The notes below the pieces were generated by a model. That model did no database searches. It worked only from the letters and a program-made list of their open reading frames with translations, and was not told the origin of the DNA. A DNA stretch of 64,000 bases from Bifidobacterium gallicum DSM 20093 = LMG 11596 (GTDB taxonomy: Bacteria > Actinomycetota > Actinomycetes > Actinomycetales > Bifidobacteriaceae), in contig NZ_JGYW01000002.1 in the NCBI RefSeq assembly GCF_000741205.1, positions 186,001-250,000 on the forward strand. The letters run 5' to 3'. Both the position numbers and the translations under genes were made by a program. This document shows, in pieces, positions 133-57,270 of the stretch. Each line of letters starts with the position of its first letter. The stretch's first letter is position 1.

Positions 133-140
133 TAGTGGAA

Positions 141-2021: not shown

Positions 2022-2229
2022 CCCGCACGTAAGCCAGTTACGTTACGTGCGGATTGGGACGTTGAGAACCCACGCGGGCACCACAGTGATAACCATTCTC
2101 ACCTTCCCGCACGTAACGTAATTGCGTTACGTGCGGGGAAGAAAACCGGGACACACAAGTTGAGAACGATTCCCAACTTCCTCCACCACTCCACCTTCCC
2201 GCACGTAAGCCAGTTACGTTACGTGCGGG
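2022..2229. repeat. Palindromic-repeat cluster 1 (3 copies)
   Basis: Copies of the 30-bp near-palindrome (10-base arms CCGCACGTAA and TTACGTGCGG around a variable 10-base centre) lie at 2022-2052, 2107-2137 and 2198-2229. The first and third have centre GCCAGTTACG. The second (CGTAATTGCG) is one base from a perfect palindrome. The cluster lies between the divergent starts of thyA and the osmC gene. Two Zur/Fur-box-like 15-mers, at 2087-2101 and 2161-2175, sit between the copies. Confidence 0.9.
2087..2175. promoter_or_regulatory. Two Zur/Fur-box-like 15-mers
   Basis: TGATAACCATTCTCA (2087-2101) and TGAGAACGATTCCCA (2161-2175) resemble the 7-1-7 inverted repeat bound by Fur-family regulators; actinobacterial Zur boxes are close to TGAAAATGATTTTCA. 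They are the only such sites in this cluster and lie 235-323 bp upstream of the osmC-family start, between palindromic repeats. Binding is an inference from sequence. Confidence 0.35.
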
Positions 2230-5449: not shown

Positions 5450-5460
5450 CGTTTTCGAGA

Positions 5461-6770: not shown

Positions 6771-7172
6771 CCCGCACGTAAGCCAGTTACGTTACGTGCG
6801 GGGAAGAAGAGGACAAGAAACCAGCGGAGAACTCAACGACGAAAAACGAACTCAACCTCCCTCTTTCCTTCCCGCACGTAAGCCAGTTACGTTACGTGCG
6901 GGCGGATAGCGCCCTTCCCCTGCCTGGAAACTCGCCAAATCCCCATCCCTCCCCGCACGTAAGGCAATTGCATTACGTGCGGACAGACACCAGCCCTCTC
7001 TATTCCCCTATCCCAGCAATTCCAGCAATCACCTTCCCTCCCGCACGTAAGCCAGTTACGTTACGTGCGGGAGGGGAGCTGGCAATAAGAAGGCCAAGAG
7101 GCAGAAACGAAAATAAGATCAGCCCATCCCTTCCCTACCGCCCCGCACGTAAGCCAGTTGCGTTACGTGCGG
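6771..7172. repeat. Palindromic-repeat cluster 2 (5 copies)
   Basis: Copies at 6771-6803, 6871-6902, 6952-6982, 7040-7071 and 7142-7172, all in the same orientation (centres GCCAGTTACG, GCCAGTTACG, GGCAATTGCA, GCCAGTTACG, GCCAGTTGCG). Spacing is irregular, 81-102 bp. The cluster fills the middle of the divergent region between the CHAP gene and serC; 6451-6770 shows no other feature. Confidence 0.9.
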
Positions 7173-7398: not shown

Positions 7399-7463
7399 CA
7401 CGGCAATAACACCATTTTGGTCAACGTCACGCAATGATAACGGATCCTGACTAAGGTGAGAGC

Positions 7464-8603: not shown

Positions 8604-8672
8604 AGTGACGCTGTTCTGTAGCCGGCGCAGTGCGGTTGTGTGAACCGCTAGCTTAACAGCTGGAATGCAATC

Positions 8673-8711
8673 GACAAAGGCCGTGGGTTCATATAACCTG
8701 CGGCCTTTGTC
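8673..8711 (+). terminator. Hairpin after serC
   Basis: GACAAAGGCCG (8673-8683) pairs perfectly with CGGCCTTTGTC (8701-8711), and inner bases GGTT/AACC extend the stem. No long T-run follows. Confidence 0.6.
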
Positions 8712-8767
8712 ATGCCCAGTACCGTCACCGGCCTCCCGCACAACTCTCGCCCCCATCCTCCCTTCCT

Positions 8768-9164
8768 CCCGCACGTAAGCTAGTTGCGTTACGTGCGGTC
8801 AAGAGGAGGGCAAGTCAGTGAAGTCCCCCAAACCACACCGCCCCCTTCTCTCTTCCCTTCCCGCACGTAAGACAGTTACGTTACGTGCGGGAAGATGAGA
8901 ATGATTATCACTGTGATACTTCCCGCAGGATCCCCTCCCCGTTTCCCCGCACGTAACGTAACTGGCTTACGTGCGGGAGAGAAAATCGTTGAGGACAAGT
9001 GAGAACGATTCTCATCCTCTTTTCTGTCAACTCGAAGCCCCCTTGTCCCGCACGTAACGCAATTGCCTTACGTGCGGAAAGATGAGAATGATTATCACCG
9101 TGATACTCCCAGTAGGTTGCCTACCCCGCTTCCCCGCACGTAACGTAACTGGCTTACGTGCGGG
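8768..9164. repeat. Palindromic-repeat cluster 3 (5 copies, mixed orientation)
   Basis: Copies at 8768-8798, 8860-8891 (forward centres GCTAGTTGCG and GACAGTTACG), 8946-8977, 9047-9077 and 9133-9164 (reverse centres CGTAACTGGC, CGCAATTGCC, CGTAACTGGC). It lies between the convergent ends of serC and manA. A block of about 87 bp (8891-8977) recurs with changes at 9078-9164, so the cluster partly grew by duplication. Confidence 0.9.
8896..9097. promoter_or_regulatory. Three Zur/Fur-box-like 15-mers in repeat cluster 3
   Basis: TGAGAATGATTATCA occurs at 8896-8910 and 9083-9097, and TGAGAACGATTCTCA at 9000-9014. The last is a perfect inverted repeat with a 3-base centre. They match the 7-1-7 layout of Fur/Zur boxes but lie between convergent gene ends, far from a start codon. 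A regulator-titrating or purely structural role is possible. Confidence 0.4.
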
Positions 9165-9360
9165 AGGAAAAGAGGGGGGAACGGGAATTCAGACGGTGGA
9201 GAGTAAACGGGGTGAATAAATAGATATAGATAATATGGACACAACCAATACGAACCACGAACAATCAGATCCAGGCAGCGGTGCTGATTATCCATACGCA
9301 GCGTTGATTCAGCCAAATGAGATAGCGGTGACGCGCGGTGGTTGCGGAGCCAACGTCTGA

Positions 9361-10911: not shown

Positions 10912-11062
10912 CCTTGTGGCTCCTTTCCATATCGCATTTCCATGCCATGCGTAATGTCATTAGCCTACCGGAAAACTCCAAAACGCACGCATGCCGACCC
11001 GATTCATCCGCAATACTGCGCCGTCAGCGAGCGCGGGAATACCCCCGGCTATGGTGGTTGTC

Positions 11063-11323
11063 ATGAAATTCGCACCACTCTATGATCCCAACGCGCGTAA
11101 GGAGAGCCCCAAACCCGTCCAGGTCGACTTGCGGAAAGTCTTTGGTATTGGTTTAGCGTTATGGATTATTGCTTTTGTAGTGGTACTCGTGATGATGGCC
11201 ATGGGTCAACCCCATATGCATAATGCTTTCGTCATCACGCTTTCCGGTGTGATTATTGGCATTTGTCTGCTGATTTGGGAATTTTTTGACCGCTCCGATT
11301 ACCGTCGACTCGGCGCGGACTGA
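11063..11323 (+). CDS. Small DUF2530-like membrane protein
   Basis: 86 residues with two predicted membrane helices (about 31-50 and 57-77) after a polar N-terminus ending in V-D-L-R-K-V-F-G. This layout and the F-G-I-G-L-A-L-W start of helix 1 resemble the actinobacterial DUF2530 family, of unknown function. The ATG at 11063 is preferred because GGTGG lies 5 bases upstream; an in-frame ATG at 11051 is possible. It is divergent from manA and converges on a histidine kinase gene. Confidence 0.75.
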   Translation: MKFAPLYDPNARKESPKPVQVDLRKVFGIGLALWIIAFVVVLVMMAMGQPHMHNAFVITLSGVIIGICLLIWEFFDRSDYRRLGAD

Positions 11324-11377
11324 CACCGCTGGTCAATATTTCTCATCAACACTTCGCTACTTCGCAGCAATATCAAC

Positions 11378-12685
11378 TCACGCCAGCGGTAGCAACAAGG
11401 TAAAGGTGCTGCCCTGCCCCGGTCTGCTCCACACGCCGACGCTGCCATGATGCGTCAATGCCACATGCTTGACAATCGCAAGTCCCAAGCCCACACCGTC
11501 ATCATTGCGCCCATTATGCTCGGCACCGCGGTAGAACCGCTCAAAAATACGCGACTGGTCTTTGAGTGGAATGCCACTGCCGCGGTCGACGACTCGCACG
11601 GAGGCTTCACGGCCATCTCGCGTGCGCGATACTATCACATTGACCACGCCTCCTTGCGGCGAATACTCCATGGCGTTTTCCACCAGTTTCGTAATTGCCG
11701 ACCGCAACTGGCCGGACTCACCATGCACTTGTACGGCATCGCGCACGCTGACTTGCACATCAACCTCCAGCTCCTGCGCCATAGGCTGCAACGTAGCCAC
11801 AGTTTGCTGCACTTCAGCGCCCAAATCGATCAGGTTGGCGCTTGAAGGTTTCACAGGTTCCTGCGCTTTGATCAACAGCAGCAAATCGGAGACCATATGA
11901 TCCACATGATTGCTGGAAATACGTACACGCCGCGCATCTTGGGCCAGTTGGTCCCGACTGGTTTCCCCACGTTCCAGCGAATCCGCGAGCGCACGTAATT
12001 CTTGGCCCGGTTTGAGCAATTGCTCGCTGACATTGACAATAAAATCGTCGCGCACTTGGTTGAACCGTATTTGCTCGCTCACGTCTTCAATAAGGATCAC
12101 CACGAATTGCGCATCGATCCGTCCGATACGCACTTTGAGCCAATTGGGCCGGCTCACTTCACTGCCGACCGCATCCTCGGAGTCGGATGGGTCAGCCGTA
12201 ACGGTGCCGCCCGCGGCATCCAATGCTTGCTGATGGGCGAATGTTTGCTCAAATAGGCTGGCGGTTTGCGTGGTGACATCCAACAGCATTCTCCCGCCCG
12301 TTTCACGCACTTGTTTCACAGCTTGGGCAATGTGCGGCTCCACAACCGCATCGTTCGCGACAATACCCAACCGGTAGGCTTCCGGATTCGAGCGAATCAC
12401 TTCGCCATCCTCGTCCACTACAATCGCCGCCGCTGGCAATAACGTCAACAGTGAGGCGAGGGCTGCGTCGATATCATCGTCGTCATCGTCGCTATCCCGG
12501 GAATCATCATGACGAAACGTGCGCCACCAGTCACCGACCCGTTCACGCACCGGCACACCGCCCGAGGCACGCTCCAGCAGCGGCGCCAACAGACCGTACG
12601 CCAGCACGCACAGGCCGAGCAGGGCGGCGATGCCCAGCAGCACAAACGCCACAAAGATGAACGTCGATCCGTCAAGATGTTGCAT
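11378..12685 (-). CDS. SenX3/PhoR-like sensor kinase lacking the phosphoacceptor histidine
   Basis: Membrane sensor: one helix (10-34), an Asp-rich linker (58-72), a PAS-like domain (about 78-205), a DHp helix (210-275) and an ATPase domain. The ATPase motifs are intact: N box L-V-E-N-A-M-E-Y-S (335-343), G1 D-R-G-S-G-I, F box F-E-R-F-Y-R and G2 G-V-G-L-G-L-A. In the DHp, however, the usual V-S-H-E-L-K-T-P reads V-S-E-Q-L-L-K-P, so glutamate E221 (codon 12023-12025) takes the place of the phosphorylated histidine. I checked this on the minus strand. phoU lies divergently 580 bp away, which fits phosphate signalling, but no response regulator gene is adjacent. It may act as a phosphatase or a structural partner. 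Confidence 0.88.
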   Translation of the reverse strand: MQHLDGSTFIFVAFVLLGIAALLGLCVLAYGLLAPLLERASGGVPVRERVGDWWRTFRHDDSRDSDDDDDDIDAALASLLTLLPAAAIVVDEDGEVIRSNPEAYRLGIVANDAVVEPHIAQAVKQVRETGGRMLLDVTTQTASLFEQTFAHQQALDAAGGTVTADPSDSEDAVGSEVSRPNWLKVRIGRIDAQFVVILIEDVSEQIRFNQVRDDFIVNVSEQLLKPGQELRALADSLERGETSRDQLAQDARRVRISSNHVDHMVSDLLLLIKAQEPVKPSSANLIDLGAEVQQTVATLQPMAQELEVDVQVSVRDAVQVHGESGQLRSAITKLVENAMEYSPQGGVVNVIVSRTRDGREASVRVVDRGSGIPLKDQSRIFERFYRGAEHNGRNDDGVGLGLAIVKHVALTHHGSVGVWSRPGQGSTFTLLLPLA

Positions 12686-12764
12686 GTGCCCATTCTTTCA
12701 CACCCAGTCCCAGTTTTTCAGCCCACCGACATACCACACCTCCTCCCCCTCTCGTTCTTTACTC

Positions 12765-12914
12765 CCCGCACGTAAGCCAGTTGCGTTACGTGCGGAATGG
12801 AACGCGAGCCGCCTCTCCACCTCCCCGCACGTAAGCCAGTTACGTTACGTGCGGAATGGAACGCGAGCCGCCTCTCCACCTCCCCGCACGTAAGCCAGTT
12901 GCATTACGTGCGGG
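12765..12914. repeat. Palindromic-repeat cluster 4 (3 copies, 59-bp tandem unit)
   Basis: Copies at 12765-12795, 12824-12854 and 12883-12914, exactly 59 bp apart. The 28-base spacers are identical, so this is a tandem duplication of palindrome plus spacer. It lies between the divergent kinase gene and phoU. The rest of 12686-13264 shows no gene. Confidence 0.9.
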
Positions 12915-13264
12915 GAGGAACGGGAGCGCAAAGATACGACCGCGAGGACAGCAGGGATAGAGAGGCAGCGATATAAGGAGACCCAAAGCGGCAAAGAGAA
13001 CAGAAGTTCTCGAATTACGCCCCCGCAACAGCATCCCTCAAGATCCGCTAATCATCGCACCGACGCGACGAAACATGAATGATTGGCGAATTCTCCGCTG
13101 AATTCTCCCCTAACGCGGCACGTGCGAAACGTCATCCTCTAGACTGTGAAGAGAATACAGACAACGTTTGCTCGCGTCAACCAACCGAAAGCGCCGAACA
13201 GCCAGGCTCTTTCGGCAACAATCATTGACGTCATCGTAGAGAAATCGTATGGAGGAGGCAGCCG

Positions 13265-13945
13265 ATGCGCGTGCTGTTTAACGAAGAGCTCAAGGCCGTG
13301 GCCGACGATCTGGATCACCTGGTCCGCAATGTGCGCGACGCCATCCATGATGCCGGCCGGGCACTGCTACAGCAGGATTTGGACGTCGCCCAGCAGGTCA
13401 TCGACATGGACGTCGAGACTGATACACTATCCGCTTCCGTCGTCGACCAGTGCGTTCGGTTGTTGGCTCGCCAAAATCCCGTGGCCACCGACCTTCGTGT
13501 CATCGTCGCCACACTGCGTTTGGCTATCACATTCGAACGCATGGGAGATTTGGCCCGTCATATCGCCGAGGCGGCGCGCCGCACCTATCCGCAATCCCCA
13601 CTTCCCGCCGCCGCGCAGCCGTTATTCGCCAAAATGCAGGATTTTCTGGACATTACAGCCGACCGTCTCGTCATCATGCTGGCCGATCGCGACACGGAAG
13701 TCGCCGAGCAGATCATCCGCGACGACGACCAGCTCGACAACATCCACAAGCAGACATTCGAACTCGCGCTCGCCGAGGATTGGGAGGGCACACGCCAACA
13801 GGTTGTTGACATTGTGTTGATCGGCCGGTTCATGGAGCGTCTCGGCGACCACGCCGTTTCGGCTTCGCGCCGTGTGGTTTATATCGTGTCCGGTTTCGAT
13901 CCGAGCAAGGAGCCGTCGCGCGATGAGGGCACCGACATCGACTGA
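13265..13945 (+). CDS. phoU: Phosphate-uptake regulator PhoU
   Basis: Cytoplasmic helical-bundle protein that links the Pst phosphate transporter to the phosphate two-component system. The two PhoU repeats are visible: E-L-x3-A-D-D-L near residue 5 with the D-x3-A-x3-V-I-D-M segment, then the second copy around 120-210. R-V-I-V-A-T-L-R-L-A-I-T-F-E-R-M-G-D-L is a classic family block. It is 226 residues, normal length. GGAGGAG lies 8 bases before the ATG. No pst genes are in the window; the divergent neighbour is the SenX3-like sensor. Confidence 0.93.
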   Translation: MRVLFNEELKAVADDLDHLVRNVRDAIHDAGRALLQQDLDVAQQVIDMDVETDTLSASVVDQCVRLLARQNPVATDLRVIVATLRLAITFERMGDLARHIAEAARRTYPQSPLPAAAQPLFAKMQDFLDITADRLVIMLADRDTEVAEQIIRDDDQLDNIHKQTFELALAEDWEGTRQQVVDIVLIGRFMERLGDHAVSASRRVVYIVSGFDPSKEPSRDEGTDID

Positions 13946-13998
13946 ACCACGCTCTGCGCACAGCTTTGTTATCTGCCGCAATTTTCAGAAATAAAGAA

Positions 13999-14043
13999 AC
14001 AAGAAAGTGGGTCACTCCTTCAGCGAGTGGCCCACTTTCTTGT
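13999..14043. terminator. Bidirectional terminator, 19-bp stem
   Basis: A long stem with one G-U pair joins ACAAGAAAGTGGGTCACTC to the matching bases ending at 14043, around a 7-base loop. A-rich and T-rich flanks on both sides suit termination of both phoU and the convergent oxidoreductase gene. Confidence 0.85.
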
Positions 14044-14086
14044 TATCTATTTCCGTTACTGCAACAGATTGCAGCACAACCGGCAA

Positions 14087-15076
14087 TCACTGTGCGATAC
14101 TGACAACGAGTTTGCCAATGTTCTCATGATTCTTCAACATGCGCAGCCCATCAATCAAACGGTCGAACGGCAGAATCTCGCCGAGCAGAGGATCGACTTT
14201 GCCGTCGGAGACAAGCTCGAGCACCTCAGCGTTCATGCGACCCAAATCGCGCTTCTGTTCCGGATTTCCTGACTCGTGAGCCCCACCCAAATTGACCACA
14301 GCCATTGAGAAAGCGTTTGCAAACATTCGATTGGAATCTACTGGCGGCACACCCACAATGGTGACAAGCTGACCGTTGTAAGCCAACATGTCGAAATCGC
14401 TCTCAGCCTCAGCTCCACTAACCGGATCAATGATGAGATCCACGCCATGACCGTCAGTAAATTCCTCCACTTCTTGCGCAACATTTTGCGTCTTGTAATC
14501 AATAATAAGATCCGCACCCGTGCGTGACGTGAAATCAACCTTGCCCGTCGAACAAGTCGTGGCCACACGCAAGCCGTGCAGTTTGGCGAACTGAACAGCC
14601 AAGGATCCCACAGAACCCGAACCAGCCTGGACGAGCACCGTATGCACGTTGTTCAGGTTCGGCTTGCGGTTGATTGTTTGATACGCCGTCAACGCGCCGC
14701 ACAACATGGCAGCCGCCTGCTCATACGACACATTCTCCGGAATCTGGGCCAGTTCATAAGTCGGCACACTTACATATTCAGCAAAGCAGCCATTTTTCGT
14801 CAGATTCAGATGGCCCGACACGCGCATGCCCGTCGACCAATCCGTGACCCCCTCACCAAGCTCGACAATCTCGCCGGCCATATCAAGGCCGAGCACATGC
14901 GGATACGCCCACGAGGAATTGCCCCCCTCCACGAGCTTGTAATCCACAGGATTGAGCCCCGTCGCATGCACTTTGACCAGCACTTCCCCCACAGCCAGCC
15001 GCGGCTTGTCCAGTTCGACAAGCTTGACCTGATCAAGTGAATCAACAGTAGCGTTTTCAACAACATACGCTTTCAT
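14087..15076 (-). CDS. Zinc-free MDR-family NAD(P)H oxidoreductase
   Basis: Quinone-oxidoreductase-like member of the medium-chain dehydrogenase/reductase superfamily. It has the GroES-like N-terminal domain (about 25-115, with G-L-N-P-V-D-Y-K and G-x-D-M-A-G) and a Rossmann domain with the A-G-S-G-S-V-G-S-L-A-V-Q loop near 152-163. The cysteines of the structural and catalytic zinc sites of alcohol dehydrogenases are absent. 329 residues is normal. It is a single gene with a shared terminator downstream and repeat cluster 5 upstream. Substrate cannot be predicted; quinones or enones are typical. Confidence 0.87.
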   Translation of the reverse strand: MKAYVVENATVDSLDQVKLVELDKPRLAVGEVLVKVHATGLNPVDYKLVEGGNSSWAYPHVLGLDMAGEIVELGEGVTDWSTGMRVSGHLNLTKNGCFAEYVSVPTYELAQIPENVSYEQAAAMLCGALTAYQTINRKPNLNNVHTVLVQAGSGSVGSLAVQFAKLHGLRVATTCSTGKVDFTSRTGADLIIDYKTQNVAQEVEEFTDGHGVDLIIDPVSGAEAESDFDMLAYNGQLVTIVGVPPVDSNRMFANAFSMAVVNLGGAHESGNPEQKRDLGRMNAEVLELVSDGKVDPLLGEILPFDRLIDGLRMLKNHENIGKLVVSIAQ

Positions 15077-15220
15077 GTTCCACTTCTTTCATTGGTGAAG
15101 AATAGAAAAACAAAAGTTGCTACCCACGATAACGGCTTCACTGCCGGGTTCCGTTGACGGCATACCCAGGAATATTTCCGTTCGCCCTCCCTCGCCGCCC
15201 GCGCTATTGTCTCCTCTCAT

Positions 15221-15487
15221 CCCGCACGTAAGCCAGTTGCGTTACGTGCGGAAAGAGCGGGAAGGCCCTGCTTCAGATTCCCGCACGTAAGCCAGTTACG
15301 TTACGTGCGGAAGAGTCCGAGATGGGTACCACTCCCCTCCCGCACGTAAGGCAATTGCGTTACGTGCGGGACAGGACGCGATTGATGCCTCTCATCTCCC
15401 GCACGTAAGCCAGTTACGTTACGTGTGGAATACAACCGAAAGCGAGTCACCCCTTCCCCGCACGTAACGCAACTAGCTTACGTGCGG
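15221..15487. repeat. Palindromic-repeat cluster 5 (5 copies at exactly 59 bp)
   Basis: Copies begin at 15221, 15280, 15339, 15398 and 15457, each exactly 59 bp after the last, with different 27-29-base spacers. Centres are GCCAGTTGCG, GCCAGTTACG, GGCAATTGCG, GCCAGTTACG (right arm TTACGTGTGG) and reverse CGCAACTAGC. The pattern imitates a small CRISPR array, but repeat orientation and centre vary and no cas genes are present. Confidence 0.9.
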
Positions 15488-15499
15488 GAGGAAAAAATA

Positions 15500-15528
15500 A
15501 AGGAACCCACCAGGGAGGTGGGTTCCTT
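15500..15528 (-). terminator. gpmA terminator
   Basis: AAGGAACCCACC pairs with GGTGGGTTCCTT around a 5-base loop. On the minus strand a T-rich tail (TTATTTTTTCC) follows. The last palindromic repeat of cluster 5 begins just beyond it. Confidence 0.85.
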
Positions 15529-15607
15529 CAGCGTTGATCACTCAAGTGAGTTGGCCACTCAAGTGATGGGTGACCTAAGCCAGCAGTCAGCAGTCAATCA
15601 CTGAGAT

Positions 15608-16351
15608 TCACTTGGACTGGCCCTGGGCTGCGACAGCGGCAGCGCCGGCGGCGGCAGCCTCAGGATCGAGGTACTCGCCACCCTTCTTGATCGGCTTCAT
15701 ATCATCATCAAGCTCGTACACGAGCGGCATGGCCGTCGGGATGTTGACCTTGGCGATCTCTTCTTCACTCAGGCCGTCGAGCATCTTGACGATGGCGCGC
15801 AACGAGTTGCCGTGAGCGGCAATCATCACGGTCTTGCCGGACTTGAGTTCCGGCACAATTTCAGCTTCCCAGTAGGGGGTCACGCGAGCGACAACGTCGG
15901 CCAGGCACTCGGCTTCCGGCACCGGATCGCCCGCGTAACGCGGATCGTTGTTCTGGGCGTACTGGTCGTTCGGATCGATCTCCGGCGGCGGCGTGCCGTA
16001 GGAGCGGCGCCACAGCATGAACTTCTCATCGCCGTATTCCTCGCGGATTTCAGTCTTGTTCTTGCCCTGCAGAGCGCCGTAGTGACGCTCGTTGAGACGC
16101 CAATCGCGCTTCACGGGGATCCACAGACGGTCAGCTTCATCAAGAGCGATGTTGGCCGTGTTGATGGAGCGGCGCAGCAGCGACGTGAAAACGATGTCTG
16201 GCAAGACATCCTTTTCCTTGAGCAGGCGGCCGCCGTTCTTGGCTTCCTCAACGCCCTTCTCGGTCAGCGGGACGTCGACCCAGCCAGTGAACTGGTTTGT
16301 TTTATTCCATGCGCTCTGACCATGTCGGAGCAGAATCAATTTATACGTCAT
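15608..16351 (-). CDS. gpmA: 2,3-bisphosphoglycerate-dependent phosphoglycerate mutase
   Basis: Interconverts 3- and 2-phosphoglycerate in glycolysis. The histidine-phosphatase signature L-L-R-H-G-Q-S-A-W (phosphorylated H10) opens the protein, [10 protein letters not shown] follows, and the second catalytic histidine is in A-A-H-G-N-S-L-R-A. It has 247 residues with a C-terminal Ala-rich tail. The start is taken at M-T-Y-K-L-I-L because this is where the family begins and GTGGAG lies just upstream; a 20-residue longer frame has no support. Confidence 0.95.
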
Positions 16352-22405: not shown

Positions 22406-23119
22406 CCCGCACGTAAGCCAGTTACATTACGTGCGGGGAAGAGATGAAAAGAGAAGAAAGCCTTATTTTCCAAGGCCTGACGAGTAACTCGCTTATGTGC
22501 GGGGAAGGACGACCTCCCGCACGTAACGCAACTGGCTTACGTGCGAGAAGGAAAGTGGTATAAGCAAATTGGGAATCGTTCTCAACTATCCATACACCCC
22601 GCACGTAATGTAATTCGCTTACGTGCGAAAAAGAGAAGAATCCTCCATTCCCCAAGACTTGGCAGACAACTCACTTACATGCGAAGAAGGAGAGGAAAGG
22701 GAAAGAAAACCCTTATTCCACAAGGCCTGACAGGTAACTCGCTTACGTGCGGGAAGAAGATGGTCTCCCGCACGTAACGTAACTCGCTTACGTGCGAAGA
22801 AGGAAAGGAAAGGGAAAGAAAACCCTTATTCCACAAGGCCTGACAGGTAACTCGCTTACGTGCGGCGAAGGACGGTCTCCCGCACGTAACGCAACTGGCT
22901 TACGTGCGGGAGGGAGAAATGGTGTGGGCAAATTGGGAATAGTTCTTAACTACCTATATGGCGGCTTTTACCCTCGTGAAACGCAACTCGCTTACGTGCG
23001 GGAAAAACAGAGGAGAAGAAAAGCCTTGTCGCACAAGGCCTGACAGGTAACTCGCTTACGTGCGGAACGAATGGACCGCCCTATCCTCCCGCACGTAACG
23101 TAACTCGCTTACGTGCGGG
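22406..23119. repeat. Palindromic-repeat cluster 6, simple and composite units
   Basis: Full palindromes at 22406-22437, 22516-22546, 22598-22628, 22767-22797, 22879-22910 and 23088-23119, with a degenerate one near 22981-23002. Between them lie composite units in which the left arm is replaced by a segment like CCTTATTCCACAAGGCCTGA, ending in the normal right half: 22461-22503, about 22640-22686, 22710-22753, 22823-22865 and about 23020-23065. A stretch of about 70 bp is duplicated (22683-22752 and 22796-22865). It lies between the tRNA-Pro terminator and the convergent fetB-like gene. Confidence 0.88.
22570..22948. promoter_or_regulatory. Two weak Zur/Fur-box-like 15-mers in cluster 6
   Basis: TGGGAATCGTTCTCA (22570-22584) and TGGGAATAGTTCTTA (22934-22948) resemble, on the opposite strand, the TGAGAACGATTCTCA type in cluster 3. 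They lie downstream of the FetB-like gene rather than at a promoter. Confidence 0.25.
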
Positions 23120-30672: not shown

Positions 30673-30804
30673 ACCCGAAATATCCGTATTTTGGCCGCGA
30701 ACACAGCTGCGAGCGCTACTGCAAACGCAATCATTGCGCGAATGCCAGCCGACGGCGCCCAGCAACCCACCAACCTGTACCATGCCGACCAAAGGAGGCT
30801 TCAT

Positions 30805-33627
30805 ATGGCAGCAACGAACGAATGGGATGCGCTGCGCTCCTGGTGTGACGGGAACGAGGAGCATGCTGAGAACGATGCGCACGCGGACAACGATGAGCAC
30901 GCTGAGAACGATGCGCATAACACCGAACGTCCTACCACGTCCAACCTGTTTGATGCCGAACGCTTCACCACTCAATTGGATGACCTGTTTGCCCGGCACG
31001 CCTCACCTGAACAGGTGGACGACTTTCTGCAGCAATCGATGATTGATGCTGAGAACGCTGGCGATCAAGCGGGATTGCTGAGCGTGCTCAACGAAACGAT
31101 GGGGTTTTACCGTTCGCAGGAACGTCACGAGGATAATCAGTGGGTCGTGCAGCGCGCAATCGAACTGGCTGTACGCATGGGGTTGCTGGGCACGGCTGCT
31201 TGGGCCACCACACTCGTGAATGCCGCGACGGCCATGCGCGCCGCCAAACACTACGACCAAGCGGAAGATCTTTATAATCAGGCCCTTGACGCGGCCAAAC
31301 AAGCTTACGGGCCTACGGACCGCAACCTTGCGGCGCTGCATAACAACCGTTCGATGCTGTTCATGGAAACCGGGAGTCCGGTCCAGGCTCGCGATGAACT
31401 CGAGCAGGCGTTGCAAATCATGCGGCAGTGCTCTCCAAATCCATCAACGGATTTGGACATCGCTTCAACGCTGACCAATTTGGCGCAAACCTGGCAGGCC
31501 ATTGCTACGCAAGAAGACGTTCACGAAGACGCTCAAGATACGACTCGGCAGCCTGCGTCCACGCCGCCCGAAGAGGAAGCACAACCGATCGCGCAGATAA
31601 AGGAAAGGGCTGATGCGAGCGCTGCAACCGGAACGAGCGCTGCGGCTCAGACCAACACCGGTCCTCAAGCGAGCGCCGATTTTCAGACAAGCGCCGACCC
31701 TCAGGCGAGCGTACCGGCTGAGACGACTGGTAAAGCTGCAGCTGGCGTCGACGAAAATAATAATGCTGCCAAAAATAATGCTGTCAACTCCGCAAATAAT
31801 TGCGCACATACCCCACCATTGCGTCGCGCACTCGAGTATGCACGCCAGGCACTTGACATCTATGAGCGTTCCGGTCATGGCGACGACGGTCATGCGGCGG
31901 CCGCGCTGATTGCCTACGCTAATATTGAAGTAGCACTGGGTCAGGCGAGGGAAGCTGTGGAGCCGCTCAAGCATGCCGTGCGGATTCTCGCACTGAATTA
32001 TGGTGAGCACTCGCCGCGCACGCAAGAGTTTCGCGATTACGTGCAGCAGATTGAACAGTTGGCGGTCCAGCAGTCCCGTCTCGATTCCAGAAAACCGGAT
32101 GAGCAAGCAGCTGCGGTATCGGGTGAGGAATCGGCAGAGTCGTCAAACGAGCTGCCGAATGCCGCTTCGGACGACGTAGAGTCAGCAACTCAAACGACAC
32201 CCCCGCGTCGCGCCGCGCAGACGGCCCAGACATCACAGGGAACACAAGGAACACAGGAAACACCGGAAACGCAAACAACACAGGCCACTCAAGTCCCGCA
32301 GACACCCCCAGTAACGTCCGCAGCACGAGCGTTCCAGTCAGTGGCAGATACATCCGCTTCATCGCAACCTGCAGCGAGTTCCCCGTTGGGGCGCCTCTCT
32401 GAGTCCTCGTCATCGCAGCCACGGGAACGGCGCACCGGCATGGAACTGGCGCACGCGTTTTGGACCGAAGCCGTCAAACCGATGATCGCTAGCGAGTTTC
32501 CCGAGTTGCTGCCGCGTGTTGCCGCCGGTCTCGTTGGACACGGTTCCGAATGTTACGGATTCGACGACGCGATTTCCGAAGACCACGATTTCTTCGCGCG
32601 CGTCTGCCTGTGGCTCACCCCCGACGATTACGCCCAATACGGCAGTCAGCTGCAAACCGCATACGGACGCTGCCAACTCGCCTATCTGCAATCCCAACAC
32701 CCTTCCCCGCACGTAAGCCAGTTGCGTTACGTGCGGGAGGAAAATCAGGAAGATTCCAACGCCGAGCCCGCAACTTCCCCGACCCCAACCTCTTCGCACG
32801 TAAGCCAGTTGCGTTACGTGCGGGAGGAGAATCTGCAGGGCGCGTTGCCGGATAACTCGCTGAAAGAGCTGAAAGAGCTGAAATCCGAGGAGGAGCTTGG
32901 CATGGTGCGCTCGATTCGTGCGCGCGGTGAGCAGCGGCGCGATGGTGTGTTTTCGGTGCCGCGGTTCTTCGAGTCGATCACGGGCTTGCCGCAGGCGCCA
33001 GGCGCTCACGAGCCGCACTTGTGGCTCATGCTTGACGAGCCGACATTGGCCGCCGCCACGAACGGTCGAGTGTTCGCCGATCCGCTCGGCTTGTTTTCCA
33101 AGACGCGCCAAGGGTTCCTGCTCATGCCGGATGACGTGCGGCTTTCGCTTGTTTCACGCCGGCTTGGCATGGCGGGTCAGGCCGGTCAGGCCAATCTGAC
33201 TCGCATATGGGCCCGTGAGGATGCGGCCGCTGCAATGTTGTGCATCACCGAGTTTGTCAACGCCGTCTGTTCGCTTGTGTTTTTGCTTAACGAACCCATT
33301 CGTGCGGGTTACATGCCGTATTACAAATGGCAGTTTGCGGCGCTGCGTCGTTTGAGCCGTCGCCCCGCGATGGTGCTTGACGACGTGTGTGCGGATCTTG
33401 AAGAGCTGCTCGCGCTGGCGTCCCCAGCGTGCGGCACGTCCAACAAGACCGCCCGTTCCCGCGTCGCCGAGCTCGTTGACACGATTTGCAGCCACGTCAC
33501 GCGGGCGTTGCTTGCACTTGGGTTGACGTCAAGTTCACACACGTTCCTGGAATGGCAACGTCCGTATGTTGAGGAGCATATCGGTTCGTCCGATTCCTCA
33601 CTACACAGCATCCACAATACTCGTTGA
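30805..33627 (+). CDS. TPR and DUF4037 protein with two in-frame palindromic repeats
   Basis: 940 residues. The start has AAAGGAGG 6 bases upstream. TPR-like helices occupy about 60-230, followed by low-complexity Ala/Thr/Gln-rich linkers and a further TPR-like pair near 330-410. A DUF4037 domain begins near 545, with the nucleotidyltransferase-like block G-S-E-C-Y-G-F-D-D and, a little after, E-D-H-D (about 579-593). The domain is split at about 634-674 by two copies of the window's palindromic repeat, both read in the frame P-H-V-S-Q-L-R-Y-V-R (the second begins S-H-V), 87 bp apart. The rest of DUF4037 (W-x-M-L-D-E-P, L-L-N-E-P-I, Y-Y-K-W) resumes afterwards. The next gene encodes DUF4125, a usual partner. 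Biochemical activity is unknown. Confidence 0.85.
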   Translation: MAATNEWDALRSWCDGNEEHAENDAHADNDEHAENDAHNTERPTTSNLFDAERFTTQLDDLFARHASPEQVDDFLQQSMIDAENAGDQAGLLSVLNETMGFYRSQERHEDNQWVVQRAIELAVRMGLLGTAAWATTLVNAATAMRAAKHYDQAEDLYNQALDAAKQAYGPTDRNLAALHNNRSMLFMETGSPVQARDELEQALQIMRQCSPNPSTDLDIASTLTNLAQTWQAIATQEDVHEDAQDTTRQPASTPPEEEAQPIAQIKERADASAATGTSAAAQTNTGPQASADFQTSADPQASVPAETTGKAAAGVDENNNAAKNNAVNSANNCAHTPPLRRALEYARQALDIYERSGHGDDGHAAAALIAYANIEVALGQAREAVEPLKHAVRILALNYGEHSPRTQEFRDYVQQIEQLAVQQSRLDSRKPDEQAAAVSGEESAESSNELPNAASDDVESATQTTPPRRAAQTAQTSQGTQGTQETPETQTTQATQVPQTPPVTSAARAFQSVADTSASSQPAASSPLGRLSESSSSQPRERRTGMELAHAFWTEAVKPMIASEFPELLPRVAAGLVGHGSECYGFDDAISEDHDFFARVCLWLTPDDYAQYGSQLQTAYGRCQLAYLQSQHPSPHVSQLRYVREENQEDSNAEPATSPTPTSSHVSQLRYVREENLQGALPDNSLKELKELKSEEELGMVRSIRARGEQRRDGVFSVPRFFESITGLPQAPGAHEPHLWLMLDEPTLAAATNGRVFADPLGLFSKTRQGFLLMPDDVRLSLVSRRLGMAGQAGQANLTRIWAREDAAAAMLCITEFVNAVCSLVFLLNEPIRAGYMPYYKWQFAALRRLSRRPAMVLDDVCADLEELLALASPACGTSNKTARSRVAELVDTICSHVTRALLALGLTSSSHTFLEWQRPYVEEHIGSSDSSLHSIHNTR
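32706..32824. repeat. Two palindromic repeats inside a coding region
   Basis: Copies at 32706-32737 and 32793-32824 (the second begins TTCGCACG rather than CCCGCACG), 87 bp apart, which is 29 codons. Both are in the same frame and orientation, and both are followed by G-A-G-G. They are the only copies in this window lying wholly within a gene. Confidence 0.92.
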
Positions 33628-38315: not shown

Positions 38316-38974
38316 CCCGCACGTAACGCAACTAGCTTACGTGCGGGAAGAAAAGTCGGGCACCCTCCCGCACGTAAGCGAGTTACTGTGTATCCCTTGG
38401 AAATAAAGGAATTTACCCCGCCTTCCCGCACGTAAGCCAGTTACGTTACGTGCCGGAGGAAGAATCAGGCCACCCATCCCGCACGTAAGCGAGTTATGGT
38501 ACACTCCTTGGAAATAAAGGGATTCACGTTGCCTTTCCCCGCACGTAACGCAACTGGCTTACGTGCGGGAGGCTGGAAGGGAGAGCTCGACAATTCATCC
38601 TAGCCCTCGGCACAGGACTCCATCATCCCAGGCGTCACCCTGCTGCACGTCACGCAACTAGCTTAGATGCGGGAGTAGAAAATATCAGAGAATATAGAAA
38701 TAATTTCCGTCACCTATCTGCGCGAAGACCCCTTGCCGCACGTAACGTAATTGCGTTACGTGCGGGAGGATAAGAATGATTTTCATCACGGACCTTCTCA
38801 GGATTCCAGCAGGATTCCAGCTACCGCCCTCCCCGCACATAACGTAACTGGCTTACGTGCGGGAGAAAGAAGCGACTGCCATCCCGCACGTAAGCGAGTT
38901 ACAGCGCACCCCTTGAAAATAAAGGGATTCACGTTGCCTTTCCCCGCACGTAACGTAACTGGCTTACGTGCGGG
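38316..38974. repeat. Palindromic-repeat cluster 7, simple and composite units
   Basis: Simple palindromes at 38316-38347, 38425-38456, 38538-38569, about 38735-38767, 38832-38862 and 38943-38974; a decayed one near 38643-38672. Composite units (left arm, then AAGCGAGTTA and a tail like CCTTGGAAATAAAGG) lie at 38367-38411, 38478-38522 and 38883-38930. Units of the two kinds alternate about every 51-60 bp. The last palindrome overlaps the 3' end of the GntR gene. Confidence 0.88.
38771..38785. promoter_or_regulatory. Zur/Fur-box-like 15-mer in cluster 7
   Basis: TAAGAATGATTTTCA matches 13 of 15 bases of the TGAGAATGATTATCA seen in cluster 3. It lies next to a palindromic repeat, downstream of the GntR gene. 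Confidence 0.25.
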
Positions 38975-46607: not shown

Positions 46608-47096
46608 CCCGAACGTAAGCCAGTTACGTTACGTGCGAAGCAAGGACACGACAAAACCCTGTATTTCCAAAGGCTGCCAAGTAACTCGCTTACGTGCGGG
46701 ACGACAACCAGCTTTCCATCCCGCACGTAAGCCAGTTGCGTTACGTGCGGGAAGAGGGGCGGCCTTCACCCTCCCGCACGTAGCGCAATTGTCTTTCATA
46801 TGAAAAAAGCAACGCAATCCCCTATATTTTCAAGGCACGCCAGGTAACTCGCTTACGTGCGAAACGACAGTCATCTTTCCCTCCCGCACATAAGCCAGTT
46901 ACGTTACGTGCGGAAAAAGGAAATGACAAAACCCTGTATTTCCAGGGGTCGTCAAGCAACCCGCTTACGTGCGGGAAGACGACCGGACTTTTCCTCCCGC
47001 ACGTAACGCAACTCGCTTACGTGCGGGAAGAGGGCAGCAAATCCTTAATTTCCAAGGGATAGGAGATAACTCGCTTACGTGCGGGATACGTGCGGG
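46608..47096. repeat. Palindromic-repeat cluster 8, simple and composite units
   Basis: Simple palindromes at about 46609-46638 (GAACG for GCACG), 46720-46751, 46883-46913 and 46996-47027, with a truncated copy from 46773. Composite units ending in TAACTCGCTTACGTGCGGG or close variants, and starting with CCCTGTATTTCCA-like tails, lie at about 46657-46700, 46820-46862, 46931-46975 and 47041-47086. The last is followed by a duplicated TACGTGCGGG. Simple and composite units alternate about every 55 bp. Confidence 0.88.
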
Positions 47097-49921: not shown

Positions 49922-51256
49922 ATGAAGGATACAAACACAACAGATATAACAAAAGTAGAAGAACCAAGCGAACATGCGCAAATCAAAAGTATAGAGGAAC
50001 TTTTGAAGATGCCCCTGACCATTCCGGACTATCAACGACCCTACAAGTGGACGACTCATAACGTTTCCGATCTTCTGGATGATATTGAAACAGCCATCGA
50101 ACAAAGCAGGCATTCCCATGGATCTGAAGGCCAAGCTGATTTCAAATATCGGATCGGCACCATCATCCTGCACCGAAACGACCAAAAGTATGAGATTGTA
50201 GATGGCCAGCAGAGAACGACTACGCTGCTCTTGCTTCGCCGCTATCTTATGGATGAATCAATAGATGCCCAGTTCATTGACATTGATTTACGCAATTCTG
50301 CAACACAAGCGAATCTCGCTGCCAATTATAGCTTTATCAGGGATTGGTTCAGCTCAAAAACCTCAAGCAGGAAGGATTTTCTTAATGCGTTCTCTAATGT
50401 GCTCGAGGTTGTGGTCATCACAGTCGAAAAACTCTCTGAAGCCTTCCAGTTATTCGATTCCCAGAATTCCAGAGGCCGCGCAATCGACCCACCAGATCTA
50501 CTCAAAGCATACCATCTGCGCGAGATGAAAGACGACCTATTCAACATGCAACGCGCAGTCATCAAATGGGAAGCACGAAACCCATCCGAAATCAATACAC
50601 TATTCCATGACTACCTCTTTCCGATTATCAAATGGTCAGACAAGAACAAGTGGGAACCCTTCACCGCTCAGCAAATCGACATATTCAAAGGAAGCCCAGT
50701 GGATTCCCCGTATTCATACGTCGCACGAACAAGAAAAGCCATGCCTTCATTCCAGATCACGGAGTCATTCATCGCCGGTGGAGATTTCTTTTCCATGGTT
50801 GATTATTACTTGGATATGCATCGCTATCTTGACAATGCCATTCAGGAAAAATCTGAATTCCGCGAAATCAACAAAATTATGAATAATTCGAAATGGAATG
50901 AATCTACTGGCTTCAAATATGCGAAAACCTTGTTTAAATGCGCATTGCTGCGCTATTACGACCGTTTCAGCAATCTTGACAAACACGCTGTGGAAAAACT
51001 GTTCCTTTGGGCATTCATGTTAAGAGTGGATATGCAAAACCTATCATTAACCAGCGTGAACCGGTATTCTATTGGCACAGACAGTACACGAGCAACACTC
51101 TATACAAACAATCTCCCAATGTTTTCAATCATCGATCACGCGCGAACACATACTGAGATTTCCAATCTGCAGATCACTGTGGAGCCTAAGGAAAATGGTC
51201 GCTGGAATAATTTGTACGAAGCATTGAAAAACATGACCAATAACACAATTTCTTGA
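49922..51256 (+). CDS. DUF262-domain protein without nuclease domain
   Basis: 444 residues, starting with AAGGA 10 bases before the ATG. The DUF262 motifs are I-P-D-Y-Q-R-P-Y-K-W (34-43), G-T-I-I-L-H and E-I-V-D-G-Q-Q-R-T-T (91-100), which form the ParB-like nucleotide-binding site of GmrS-type proteins. The rest is helical, with no DUF1524 HNH motif. DUF262 proteins are NTP-dependent subunits of modification-dependent restriction systems such as GmrSD. The next gene, 16 bp on, has its own DUF262 plus the nuclease domain, so this may be a regulatory or companion subunit. The region is AT-richer than its surroundings. Confidence 0.85.
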   Translation: MKDTNTTDITKVEEPSEHAQIKSIEELLKMPLTIPDYQRPYKWTTHNVSDLLDDIETAIEQSRHSHGSEGQADFKYRIGTIILHRNDQKYEIVDGQQRTTTLLLLRRYLMDESIDAQFIDIDLRNSATQANLAANYSFIRDWFSSKTSSRKDFLNAFSNVLEVVVITVEKLSEAFQLFDSQNSRGRAIDPPDLLKAYHLREMKDDLFNMQRAVIKWEARNPSEINTLFHDYLFPIIKWSDKNKWEPFTAQQIDIFKGSPVDSPYSYVARTRKAMPSFQITESFIAGGDFFSMVDYYLDMHRYLDNAIQEKSEFREINKIMNNSKWNESTGFKYAKTLFKCALLRYYDRFSNLDKHAVEKLFLWAFMLRVDMQNLSLTSVNRYSIGTDSTRATLYTNNLPMFSIIDHARTHTEISNLQITVEPKENGRWNNLYEALKNMTNNTIS

Positions 51257-51272
51257 ATACAGGAGAAGAATC

Positions 51273-53228
51273 ATGACGCATGGCAATGAACGGATGATTG
51301 ACGAGTTGGTTGCGGACTCAATATTCAGCGGCAGCGAAATAACGAAGTACGTGATACCTATTTATCAGCGTGCATATGCATGGGGGGAAACTGAAATCGG
51401 ACAATTGATCGATGATATCTGGGAGCATGAAGACGATACCTACTACATCGGTTCGCTCATCGTTCACAAGCGTGGCGATGAATATGAGGTGATTGATGGT
51501 CAGCAGCGTCTGACGACACTCCTGCTTCTATCTATCGTTCTACGTCAAAAACCAAATCGCAACCTGTCTTTCGACTGCCGCAAAAAGGCCAATAACACCC
51601 TGGACAAATATATTGATGGCAGAGAGATTCCCAATGAGGAGCTGGAAAAAGGACTCGCCGAAGGCATTGGAATCATAAAAAATAAGTTCAAAATAAATGA
51701 GAAAGGTGTACAAGACAAAAACGCTGAAATCCAAAAGAGTGAGTTTCTCCGTAAACTTAGCACAGTCAAATTGTTCAGAATCCAAGTTCCAGAACAAACC
51801 GATCTGAACCGCTATTTTGAGATCATGAATACGCGAGGAGAACAGCTTGAGCAGCACGATATCCTTAAAGCAAGGTTGATGAATGGTATCCACAACGTTT
51901 CAAAAAGGGAATGGTTTGCCAAGATTTGGAATGCATGCAGCGACATGACAGGCTATGTTCAAATGCACTTTGGCACAAACGCACGAAATCACATATTCTC
52001 TAATGGCTGGGATCAACTCAAGACTGATTATGAGTACGAAAACAACCAAGACCAAGCAGAAGAACCAAAACTTACAATCGGAGATATCCTTTCCCCGGGA
52101 TTCAAAGCGAAAGTCGCGGATGTTGGAATAGAGACAAGCGGCCGCGTACGTTTTGAAAGCATCATTTCATTCCCATACTTCCTCCTTCATGTGCTTCGTG
52201 TCTTCGTCAACACTCATAGAATTACCCTAGGCAGTGGAGAAGAGCTGCCGGACCAGCTAGACGACAAGAAATTGCTCACTGAATTCAAGCATGTAGGTGA
52301 GCAAATCACGCAAGAGAGCCAGGTTGACATGGACATGGAAGAATTCGCATCGCAGTTTGCGCAGTGCTTACTCACGTGTCGCTTTCTGTTCGATAAATAC
52401 ATCATCAAACGAGAGTTCGCGAATGAATCCACAGATGGCGAATGGAGTCTCAAGCAACTTGAGGCACACGGCGAGAAAGGCAAGAGATCCGCGTTCTACA
52501 CAAATACAAAACTTCGAAAAAGCAGGGAGCGAAATACGACTGCAGAATACCGACATAAAGAAAGCATCATGCTGCAATCGTGCCTGCGCGTATCCTACAC
52601 GTCTGCTAAAACAATGCACTGGATAACGGAACTGCTTGAATGGCTGTATGAGAATATCGATGATCTTGCCGATGGCACGGAAAGCTGGGATCAATACCCT
52701 GTACGCATTGAGCAGATCGCCCAGAAAGCAGTAGTGCCTTTTCTGGAGAACAGGAATTTCGAAATGGGGGTGAGCACTCCACACATCGTGTTCAACTACC
52801 TTGACTATCTCCTGTGGAAAGAAAATCCTAAAAAATACGATGATTTTGCATTCGAGTTCCGCAACTCGGTAGAACATTGGTACCCGCAACACCCATCTGA
52901 AGGCACTTTTGATAGTTGGACAAAGGTAGACTGCTTCGGCAATCTTTGCATTCTCGCACGCAATGCCAATTCCAAATTCTCCAATCTGGCTCCGGATTCC
53001 AAGAAAAACACCTATCGTGACATCATCAAAAAGGGAAGCCTCAAACTGCGAATCATGGCAGAGAAGACCATTGACGGGCCAAATTCGAACGCAGATTGGA
53101 AAGACCACGCTGAGTCCTATGGCCTCGAAATGATAAAGAAACTCATAGAGGCATGTGGCTTACCCAAGACCGGATTTCCACGAAATTCTCAGTCCGACGC
53201 TCCAGTTGAATGTTTCCCGGACGCATAG
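51273..53228 (+). CDS. DUF262-DUF1524 GmrSD-type nuclease
   Basis: 651 residues, with AGGAGAAG 4 bases before the ATG. The N-terminal DUF262 domain has I-P-I-Y-Q-R-A-Y-A-W (28-37) and E-V-I-D-G-Q-Q-R-L-T (72-81). The C-terminal DUF1524 domain has an HNH-like motif: S-V-E-H-W-Y-P-Q-H-P (H535), then G-N-L-C-I-L (N557) and N-S-K-F-S-N-L before a conserved K. This single-chain form is GmrSD-like: NTP-dependent cleavage of modified DNA, typically of phages. The upstream DUF262 gene is part of the same operon. Specificity cannot be read from sequence. Confidence 0.88.
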   Translation: MTHGNERMIDELVADSIFSGSEITKYVIPIYQRAYAWGETEIGQLIDDIWEHEDDTYYIGSLIVHKRGDEYEVIDGQQRLTTLLLLSIVLRQKPNRNLSFDCRKKANNTLDKYIDGREIPNEELEKGLAEGIGIIKNKFKINEKGVQDKNAEIQKSEFLRKLSTVKLFRIQVPEQTDLNRYFEIMNTRGEQLEQHDILKARLMNGIHNVSKREWFAKIWNACSDMTGYVQMHFGTNARNHIFSNGWDQLKTDYEYENNQDQAEEPKLTIGDILSPGFKAKVADVGIETSGRVRFESIISFPYFLLHVLRVFVNTHRITLGSGEELPDQLDDKKLLTEFKHVGEQITQESQVDMDMEEFASQFAQCLLTCRFLFDKYIIKREFANESTDGEWSLKQLEAHGEKGKRSAFYTNTKLRKSRERNTTAEYRHKESIMLQSCLRVSYTSAKTMHWITELLEWLYENIDDLADGTESWDQYPVRIEQIAQKAVVPFLENRNFEMGVSTPHIVFNYLDYLLWKENPKKYDDFAFEFRNSVEHWYPQHPSEGTFDSWTKVDCFGNLCILARNANSKFSNLAPDSKKNTYRDIIKKGSLKLRIMAEKTIDGPNSNADWKDHAESYGLEMIKKLIEACGLPKTGFPRNSQSDAPVECFPDA

Positions 53229-53325
53229 AGAAAAGTAGCAAGACTCACTCCTGAAGCCTCTTGGGTATCAGGGCATCCATCCCCCGCATTCGCATCATTG
53301 CTTGGAGTGGTGTGGAGTCACGCTA

Positions 53326-54741
53326 TTATGAGCGCTTCTCCCGCCTAGCCTTCGCAATAGCCCGCGATTGCTGAATCCACGTATTGATCTGGGCGCGCAA
53401 CGACTCGTCATCCATGGCCTGCAGGGTCTTGACATCGCTCTTTACAATACGGGGGAGATTCATGCCGCGGGGAACGCTAATAGGATCATTCGGGAAGACG
53501 CCTCTGGTATCGCCAGAAAGATAGACGGGATCCTCACCAGTTCCTTCAGCGGGGAAGAAAGTCAATCCCTGCCCTTTTCCTGAAGTCATCTTTATTTCGA
53601 CGATATTATTACCGGCTTCCGAGTCAGTGGGACTAATACGAGACTCCTTAGGCTCCTTGCCATATGTGGTAGAATCATCTGCCCCCGGCAACTTATTGAG
53701 AGCATACAGATTGAAAATACGACGAACAAGCCGTTGCGCACCTACGTTCTTCGTATGAACTTGCTTGCCCGCGCATAGCGCCTCGTAGACCCTTCCCACA
53801 AGCATCTTGGCGTCCTGGAATGGCATCCGATCACCTAATGCCAGCTGGAAGGCTTGCCCAGCTTCCTGCACTTCCTGCATAGATGAATCATCGCCACCAT
53901 CTTCGTCATTATCACCCACGAAGTAGGTGTGCAGCAAGTCAATGTTTTCCTTATACGGCTCAAACGCAGAAAAAGCGTCATCTTCCAAATCCAGCTTGCT
54001 CTGTGTATTGATACGGAAATCTTTGACGAGCTTCATCGCATCCAGGTCTGTCAACTTGGGGAGCAAATCATCAAGCATGGAAACAAGATCAGCATATGAC
54101 ATGTCATGCCATTGATACTGCCATTGTGAATACTCCTCCTCATTCTCAGGGAAAGAAGGCGGACGATGTCCATCTATCGTCAGGAAGAGGTAAACGGCAT
54201 GCGGATATGAACGCTTATCGCCATAAAGTGCATGGCCATCTACAGTCTCATAGTATTTTTCGAGTTGAGAAACCTTCTTCTTGCATTTAACGACTTTCCC
54301 CTCAGCATCTTGCTCCTCGACTACAGCCTCCACGATGTCGCTTTCATGCTCGTCCGATCCCATTTTCGCTTCAATCACCACGAGTAATCCAGCGCTGCGA
54401 TCATGGGCAAAAACGTCAATATGGTTGCCTAAAGCTTCAGTCTCAGCACCATCTTGATCGTCAGGAACATACGTATCCCCGCTCTGGGTCAATTCCACGC
54501 CGGCATAATTCGCGATCCAACGCATGGCCGCATCCCCAAGGCCATGGTTTGCGGTAGGATCAAGCAACCAGCGCAACATCTTACAGAAACGTGTTTCGTA
54601 GCTCTCACGTCCATATTCGAGAATCGACCAAAAGTTAGGGGTTTTTGCATCCAGCAACAGTGCCTGCGTCTTCGGCTGTTGAGCCAGCTGCTCAAGTTGA
54701 CTGATCAACCCCTCCATTGCGTTTTTCTCATTATTGCCCAT
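53326..54741 (-). CDS. PD-(D/E)XK nuclease-superfamily protein
   Basis: 471 residues; the start is set by GGAGG 7 bases before the ATG. The N-terminal motif E-x-x-F-C-K-M-L-R-W-L-L-D-P (E50, about 50-62) with N-H-G (65-67), then H-I-D-V-F (D109) and V-I-E-A-K (E124, K126), match the PDDEXK_4 type of nuclease domain. The long C-terminal half (about 240-471) is helical and of unknown role. It lies 97 bp from the convergent DUF262-DUF1524 gene. Although it has its own transcript, placement in the same island suggests a defence function, possibly independent. Confidence 0.82.
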   Translation of the reverse strand: MGNNEKNAMEGLISQLEQLAQQPKTQALLLDAKTPNFWSILEYGRESYETRFCKMLRWLLDPTANHGLGDAAMRWIANYAGVELTQSGDTYVPDDQDGAETEALGNHIDVFAHDRSAGLLVVIEAKMGSDEHESDIVEAVVEEQDAEGKVVKCKKKVSQLEKYYETVDGHALYGDKRSYPHAVYLFLTIDGHRPPSFPENEEEYSQWQYQWHDMSYADLVSMLDDLLPKLTDLDAMKLVKDFRINTQSKLDLEDDAFSAFEPYKENIDLLHTYFVGDNDEDGGDDSSMQEVQEAGQAFQLALGDRMPFQDAKMLVGRVYEALCAGKQVHTKNVGAQRLVRRIFNLYALNKLPGADDSTTYGKEPKESRISPTDSEAGNNIVEIKMTSGKGQGLTFFPAEGTGEDPVYLSGDTRGVFPNDPISVPRGMNLPRIVKSDVKTLQAMDDESLRAQINTWIQQSRAIAKARREKRS

Positions 54742-57220: not shown

Positions 57221-57270
57221 CCCCCTTATCCCGCACGTAAGCTAACTACGTTACGTGCGGGATAAGGGGG
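57221..57270. repeat. Isolated palindromic repeat with 20-bp perfect stem
   Basis: CCCCCTTATCCCGCACGTAA (57221-57240) pairs perfectly with TTACGTGCGGGATAAGGGGG (57251-57270) around GCTAACTACG. It is the family palindrome with the arms extended by 10 bp. Pyrimidines dominate the 200 bases to the left, purines the 170 to the right. Confidence 0.9.

Follow-up and report, generated by a model that had tools for sequence, protein, structure and literature searches.

The window analysed here, a stretch of 64,000 nucleotides of Bifidobacterium gallicum (C2:186001-250000 of G000, a genome of 2,004,594 bases in 12 contigs), contains a gene for a protein with TPR repeats and DUF4037, the start of which is in our judgement probably the ATG at 30805, giving 940 residues. 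Two copies of the palindrome CGCACGTAAGCCAGTTGCGTTACGTGCG lie within this gene, at 32708-32735 and 32795-32822, with 87 nt or 29 codons from start to start, in a direct repeat of 39 nt with 97% identity, and are translated in frame as PHVSQLRYVREEN and SHVSQLRYVREEN. The original prediction had drawn attention to this pair, and its coordinates, reading frame and 29-codon spacing are verified. It had also placed the pair inside the DUF4037 domain, but the match to the Pfam model PF13228 covers residues 740-842, with M30805 as residue 1 (about 33022-33330 of the window), and the repeats, at about residues 635-673, lie upstream of this match in a different segment of the same protein. They occupy a loop that follows the conserved GHGSECYGFDDAISEDHDFF, which resembles a nucleotidyltransferase motif. 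That the segment is an insertion, as had been proposed, was confirmed by alignment with 28 orthologues (from 30 loci fetched from the 107 genomes with a match; G000 itself was excluded and L099 was dropped by a length filter), among which 21 have a short loop, six have a long and unrelated one, and one, from B. dolichotidis (G029), has a loop with decayed copies of the repeat. By hand count, the insert adds about 67 residues relative to the short-loop orthologues. The features of the locus are collected in the table.

Table. Palindromes, arrays and genes described in the text (window positions, except for the last row, which refers to the fetched B. dolichotidis locus)
Feature	Position	Strand	Remark
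Host ORF, TPR repeats and DUF4037	30691..33627	+	978 aa from TTG 30691
Palindrome copy 1	32703..32740	.	in frame, PHVSQLRYVR
Palindrome copy 2	32790..32827	.	in frame, SHVSQLRYVR
Intergenic array	2025..2226	.	3 palindromes
Intergenic array	6774..7170	.	5 palindromes
Intergenic array	8771..9161	.	5 palindromes
Intergenic array	12768..12911	.	3 palindromes, 59-bp period, identical spacers (tandem duplication)
Intergenic array	15224..15485	.	5 palindromes, exact 59-bp period, spacers unlike
Array	22409..23116	.	6 palindromes (first overlaps the end of a small ORF) and 4 interleaved degenerate one-arm copies (22725, 22838, 22974, 23038)
Array between conserved ORFs	38319..38971	.	7 copies (6 at <=2 arm mismatches)
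Intergenic array	46611..47024	.	6 copies (5 at <=2 arm mismatches)
Lone palindrome	57233..57258	.	
B. dolichotidis C2 loci with in-frame half-site inserts (RadA, TruB)	L090:4554-6095 and L090:10898-12151		

The pair in the DUF4037 gene represents 2 of 106 copies of a palindrome family, and the original interpretation was in this respect too narrow; it also missed the confinement of the family to one region of the chromosome, as this lay outside the view on which it was based. Within the window, the pattern GCACGTAAN10TTACGTGC is found 43 times at up to three mismatches versus 0.33 times expected from shuffles, and the 38-nt consensus 26 times at up to three mismatches versus 0.00 expected, counts so far above expectation that a chance origin of the repeats is excluded. 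The whole genome has 107 sites with at most two arm mismatches. C2:1-300000 holds 106 of these, with 41 falling within the window, and C2:300001-327839 holds none, leaving one site elsewhere in the genome. All 96 exact palindromes and all 186 genome-wide occurrences of the half-site CCGCACGTAANNYAR are located in C2:82,815-262,345, a stretch of 180 kb that makes up 9% of the genome and also includes these 106 sites, while the reversed-pattern controls gave no match in G000. Under our gene-gap definition, the 106 copies form 37 groups of one to six copies each, and distances between neighbours of up to 130 bp (n=56) span 51 to 127 bp. At 22725-23070 and 46835-46972 of the window, some copies are degenerate and retain a single arm (..CGCTTACGTGCG); three of them have the left part CACAAGGCCTGACAGGTAACTCGC in common. 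The window also includes a low-GC island at 50001-54000 (0.43-0.49 versus about 0.57) with ORFs that have no match in the relatives' stretches.

Copies of the palindrome are found mainly between genes. Conserved ORFs, defined by a tblastn match of at least 35% identity in the stretches of five relatives, cover 69% of the stretch, and yet 98 of the 106 copies touch none of them (binomial p 5e-40 if copies are independent). Only four of the eight remaining copies lie well inside a conserved ORF, the other four touching just ORF ends or uncertain starts. Apart from the DUF4037 pair, in-frame copies are carried by a GH43 gene (C2:144426) and by the TilS gene (C2:160939), in which ACGTTA replaces the arm's ACGTAA that would be a stop. 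In B. dolichotidis, a similar peptide occurs in the same insert of TilS, at the protein level only; an insert in RadA contains two direct half-sites 24 nt apart, and TruB has an N-terminal extension of six 27-nt units, with the half-site exact in two and changed in four. The original prediction had likened the repeats to the palindromic elements (RPEs) that spread in frame through the genes of Rickettsia. The part of this comparison that stands is the in-frame occurrence in unrelated genes, namely those for DUF4037, TilS, GH43, RadA and TruB, in two species. The preference for coding sequence does not stand, and neither does the type of unit: the repeats measure 28-38 nt instead of about 150 nt, and rather than a single peptide they yield different readings by frame (PHVxQLxYVR, ARKxxxLRA, SRTLDxCxTC). 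Coding elements of this kind would not be expected to stay within one region either, and the explanation, mostly refuted already by the intergenic majority, is scarcely credible for the family as a whole.

One other species, B. dolichotidis, has the family in a diverged version. Out of 112 genomes of the genus, the exact arm pattern occurs in G000 (96) and in B. dolichotidis (2). When up to two mismatches to the 24-nt pattern are allowed, the latter has 54 matches and most other genomes have 0-9, the reversed control giving 0-18. Forty-nine of the 54 matches lie in C2:140-400k of B. dolichotidis, the 260 kb fetched around the stretch syntenic to that of B. gallicum. The arms there mostly read GCACRTAA/TTAYGTGC, and 24 of the 26 half-sites are on C2, 19 of these in C2:140-400k, the remainder being strays that weigh against the binding-site reading; lone half-sites are present, some as direct repeats inside genes. 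Sites tend to occupy the same places in both species: of the 74 gene gaps that can be compared, both species have sites in 16, with sites in B. gallicum only in 7, in B. dolichotidis only in 10 and in neither in 41 (Fisher p 5.6e-5). The association persists when gaps are stratified by size and those above 3 kb are dropped (p 0.004-0.005, 66 gaps of the stretch), and is weak for the core of the stretch alone (p 0.045-0.093, 48 gaps). A de novo search for inverted repeats in the syntenic stretches of G011, G044, G086 (80 kb) and G064 (60 kb; the last two partial) gave no comparable family. A scan of GTDB, which may omit records near the window's own genome, returned 36 matching stretches, two from B. 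dolichotidis (L046, L049) and four from one Fluviicola MAG; among viral contigs, seven stretches match with one site each. The stretches from the Fluviicola MAG (L036, L048, L057, L066) belong to a separate family, with palindromes around GGCACGTAATATTGCAAATTTACGTGCC on several of its contigs, and the match to the arm pattern is probably a convergence. Another member of the genus, G102, carries a different palindrome family, CACGCAAA, with 29 matches to the 24-nt pattern (G098 also has 7). The G102 palindrome is about 52 bp long, CTAGTA..TCACGCAAA-N8-TTTGCGTGA..TACTAG, is often paired 62 bp apart, and is spread over many contigs (L162-L175: C11, C19, C24, C26, C28).

Synteny allows the region to be placed on the chromosome. 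C2:92-297k of G000 corresponds to G011:1,638-1,858k, with gene order around the sites largely conserved across species; the group that lies apart, at C2:82.8 kb, falls beyond the mapped synteny. In G011 (2,211,039 bases), dnaA is located at 1.3 kb, and among the stretches sampled for GC skew, most of those up to 0.8 Mb are weakly positive and most of those past 0.9 Mb negative, with a few exceptions. If G000, which is assembled in contigs, shares the order of G011, the sites would occupy the middle of an arm, at about 390-570 kb from the origin. In G000 itself, the lowest GC skew, of -0.05 to -0.10 per 10 kb, is found at C2:100000-210000, the part richest in palindromes.

The repeat unit spans 28-38 nt, and its consensus ends are CTTCCC and GGGAAG. 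Among sites preselected at up to two mismatches, arm mismatches in B. gallicum amount to 11 of 1696 positions. The 10-nt centre is mostly YARYTR, and its halves are heterotypic, with GCYAG on one side and CGYAA on the other, in 61 of 106 copies versus 28 expected. Nearly invariant inverted arms around such an asymmetric centre would suit the sites of a site-specific recombinase or another enzyme. However, one A of the centre and the T that mirrors it show no variation in any of the 106 copies, and gene order near the sites is largely kept across species, neither of which speaks for recombination; nor do we know of recombination sites with a 10-bp spacing in about one hundred copies. We therefore regard an enzyme of this type as a very improbable reader of the repeats.

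Palindromes may also act as hairpins in transcribed RNA, for example as terminators or as processing or stability signals for the genes of the stretch. Three units folded as RNA do give strong structures, of -19.3 to -23.5 kcal/mol with z of -4.2 to -6.9, and pairing covariation is seen in the flanks: flank positions 1-6 are paired in 429 of 636 cases in B. gallicum versus 406.6 expected (p 0.003; p 0.06 in B. dolichotidis), and flank positions 7-16 show pairing covariation in B. dolichotidis (p 0.011), although not in B. gallicum (p 0.67). The arms behave differently from these flanks. In B. dolichotidis (n=72 sites, <=4 mismatches), the variable arm position, number 4, shows pairing in 34 sites versus 33.0 expected, with A-C (15) at least as frequent as G-T (10), and all arm positions pooled are paired in 450 of 576 cases versus 451.9 expected, without any excess. 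A terminator U-run is lacking, as the 3' flanks are purine-rich with T in only 0-16 of 106 copies per position; our terminator scan (window 1-16000) admits loops of up to 8, so that these units fall outside its range. In addition, groups show no clear preference among tandem, convergent and divergent gaps (24, 8 and 5 groups versus 42, 12 and 12 gaps of at least 150 bp), Rfam matches in the window are limited to two tRNAs, and a role in RNA would leave the confinement to one region unexplained. Such a role is unlikely, if less so than a recombinase site.

A more serious alternative is a selfish or neutral palindrome similar to REPs and BIMEs, which would have multiplied by short-range copying (slippage, template switching or local hopping) and so would not have spread far from where it first inserted. 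The size of the repeat, its intergenic arrays, its potential to form hairpins and its occasional in-frame copies all agree with what is outlined for REPs in the literature (PMC3733652). Local copying is further suggested by the duplicated spacers in one 59-bp array and by the orientation common to neighbours within 300 bp in 38 of 54 cases, and another member of the genus, G102, has a different palindrome family on many contigs. The covariation in the outer flanks also fits a hairpin, or a copying process that makes palindromes, better than a short binding site; it led us to lower our confidence in the binding-site reading slightly and to raise that in a REP-like repeat by as little. On the other hand, in 2.0 Mb no exact copy or half-site is found outside the stretch, and similarity does not decay with distance between groups (Mantel r -0.06, p 0.22). 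Y1_Tnp (PF01797) has no match in B. dolichotidis, and its three matches in B. gallicum are on C3 and C5, contigs without an exact copy or half-site. Half-sites without partner, and arms without pairing covariation in B. dolichotidis, are likewise not what a copied hairpin would be expected to leave. In spacing, the 36-39-bp class dominates in B. dolichotidis; the periodicity has p = 0.054 once this class is removed, and we make no claim from it. If the family is a selfish repeat, it is a puzzle how it reached more than 30 places without leaving one region. Nevertheless, we consider a REP-like origin quite conceivable, even if on balance it is the less probable outcome.

The reading that we prefer, if tentatively and with somewhat less than even confidence, is that the palindromes form an array of binding sites for a putative protein whose task would be to mark or organise a single chromosomal domain. 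Arms that vary independently in B. dolichotidis, together with lone half-sites, suggest that it is the half-site that is constrained. Because hairpin readings predict paired changes in the arms, their absence, along with lone and directly repeated half-sites, favours recognition of the half-site in double-stranded DNA, for instance by a dimer. Likewise, confinement and the absence of any stray half-site in B. gallicum favour a domain-linked role rather than a repeat that moves freely. In the mechanism that we propose, a putative sequence-specific DNA-binding protein would read dyad-symmetric sites through the half-site CCGCACGTAANNYAR; the sites, for the most part intergenic and in groups of 1-6, would mark a domain of about 125-180 kb midway along one chromosome arm, and their role would be the organisation or marking of this domain, not the regulation of individual genes. 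The few sites in genes would be tolerated in loops or linkers, in frames that avoid stop codons.

A search for a candidate binder, which covered C2, found none. Four proteins of the stretch match B. dolichotidis and no other fetched relative; their Pfam assignments are DUF559, MazG, DUF417 below the cut-off, and no match. The DUF559 protein (C2:152847-153812, near the middle of the stretch) was rejected as the binder, given that its homologues in 81 of 112 genomes do not track the repeats. Assuming that the sites are bound, they might represent a domain system not described before, in which a putative protein would recognise a long palindrome whose roughly 100 copies are restricted to one mid-arm domain, with a site sequence shifted family-wide between two species and a need for sites strong enough that they are carried in frame in genes such as tilS, radA and truB. 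We consider this possible yet rather doubtful. In the literature on Bifidobacterium repeats, domain sites and in-frame palindromes, no description of the family was found among the top matches listed, judged by titles and the openings of abstracts. If these are binding sites, a mid-arm domain so densely marked, by about 100 palindromes, and located correspondingly in two clearly diverged species would offer a natural experiment in site function, and the 38-mer could be used as bait to search for the binder directly.

Among the known palindromic sites of bacteria, the CIRCE operator of HrcA resembles the family in having arms of about 9 bp with 9-10 bp between them; its sequence differs, and it serves regulation at a small number of sites instead of forming a regional family. 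The parS sites of ParB, with the consensus TGTTTCACGTGAAACA, are unlike the family in sequence, and the location of the family by synteny is not ori-proximal. Families of sites confined to one domain are, to our knowledge, known mainly from MatP/matS. RPEs share with the present repeats their palindromic nature and their occurrence in frame within unrelated genes, but as summarised in PMC10969869 they are about 150 bp long, encode a conserved peptide and lie in ORFs in nearly half of the cases, whereas the repeats here are 28-38 bp with more than 90% of copies off conserved ORFs. REPs, in the outline given by PMC3733652 and PMC3116915, are palindromes of 20-40 bp that are intergenic, grouped and occasionally found in genes; they have a GTAG or CGTC tag at one end, GTAG REPs go with RAYT transposases, and the REP doublets of P. 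fluorescens SBW25 are distributed randomly in extragenic space. REPs without a REPtron are also reported (PMC3733652). The family described here is similar as a 28-38-bp palindrome with many intergenic copies, 98 of 106 lying off conserved ORFs, but it has CTTCCC/GGGAAG ends in place of a GTAG or CGTC tag and, in B. gallicum, is strictly confined to one region instead of being dispersed over the chromosome. The matS sites read by MatP in E. coli are described as 13-bp sequences, with 23 sites in the 800-kb terminus domain (PMC3330122). As with matS, short palindromic sites are here repeated within one large domain of the chromosome; in contrast to matS, they are 28-38 bp long, number 106 in 180 kb, are grouped, belong to Bifidobacterium and lie mid-arm by synteny and not at the terminus. 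The matS-like confinement to a single domain nevertheless holds in B. gallicum, and mostly so in B. dolichotidis.
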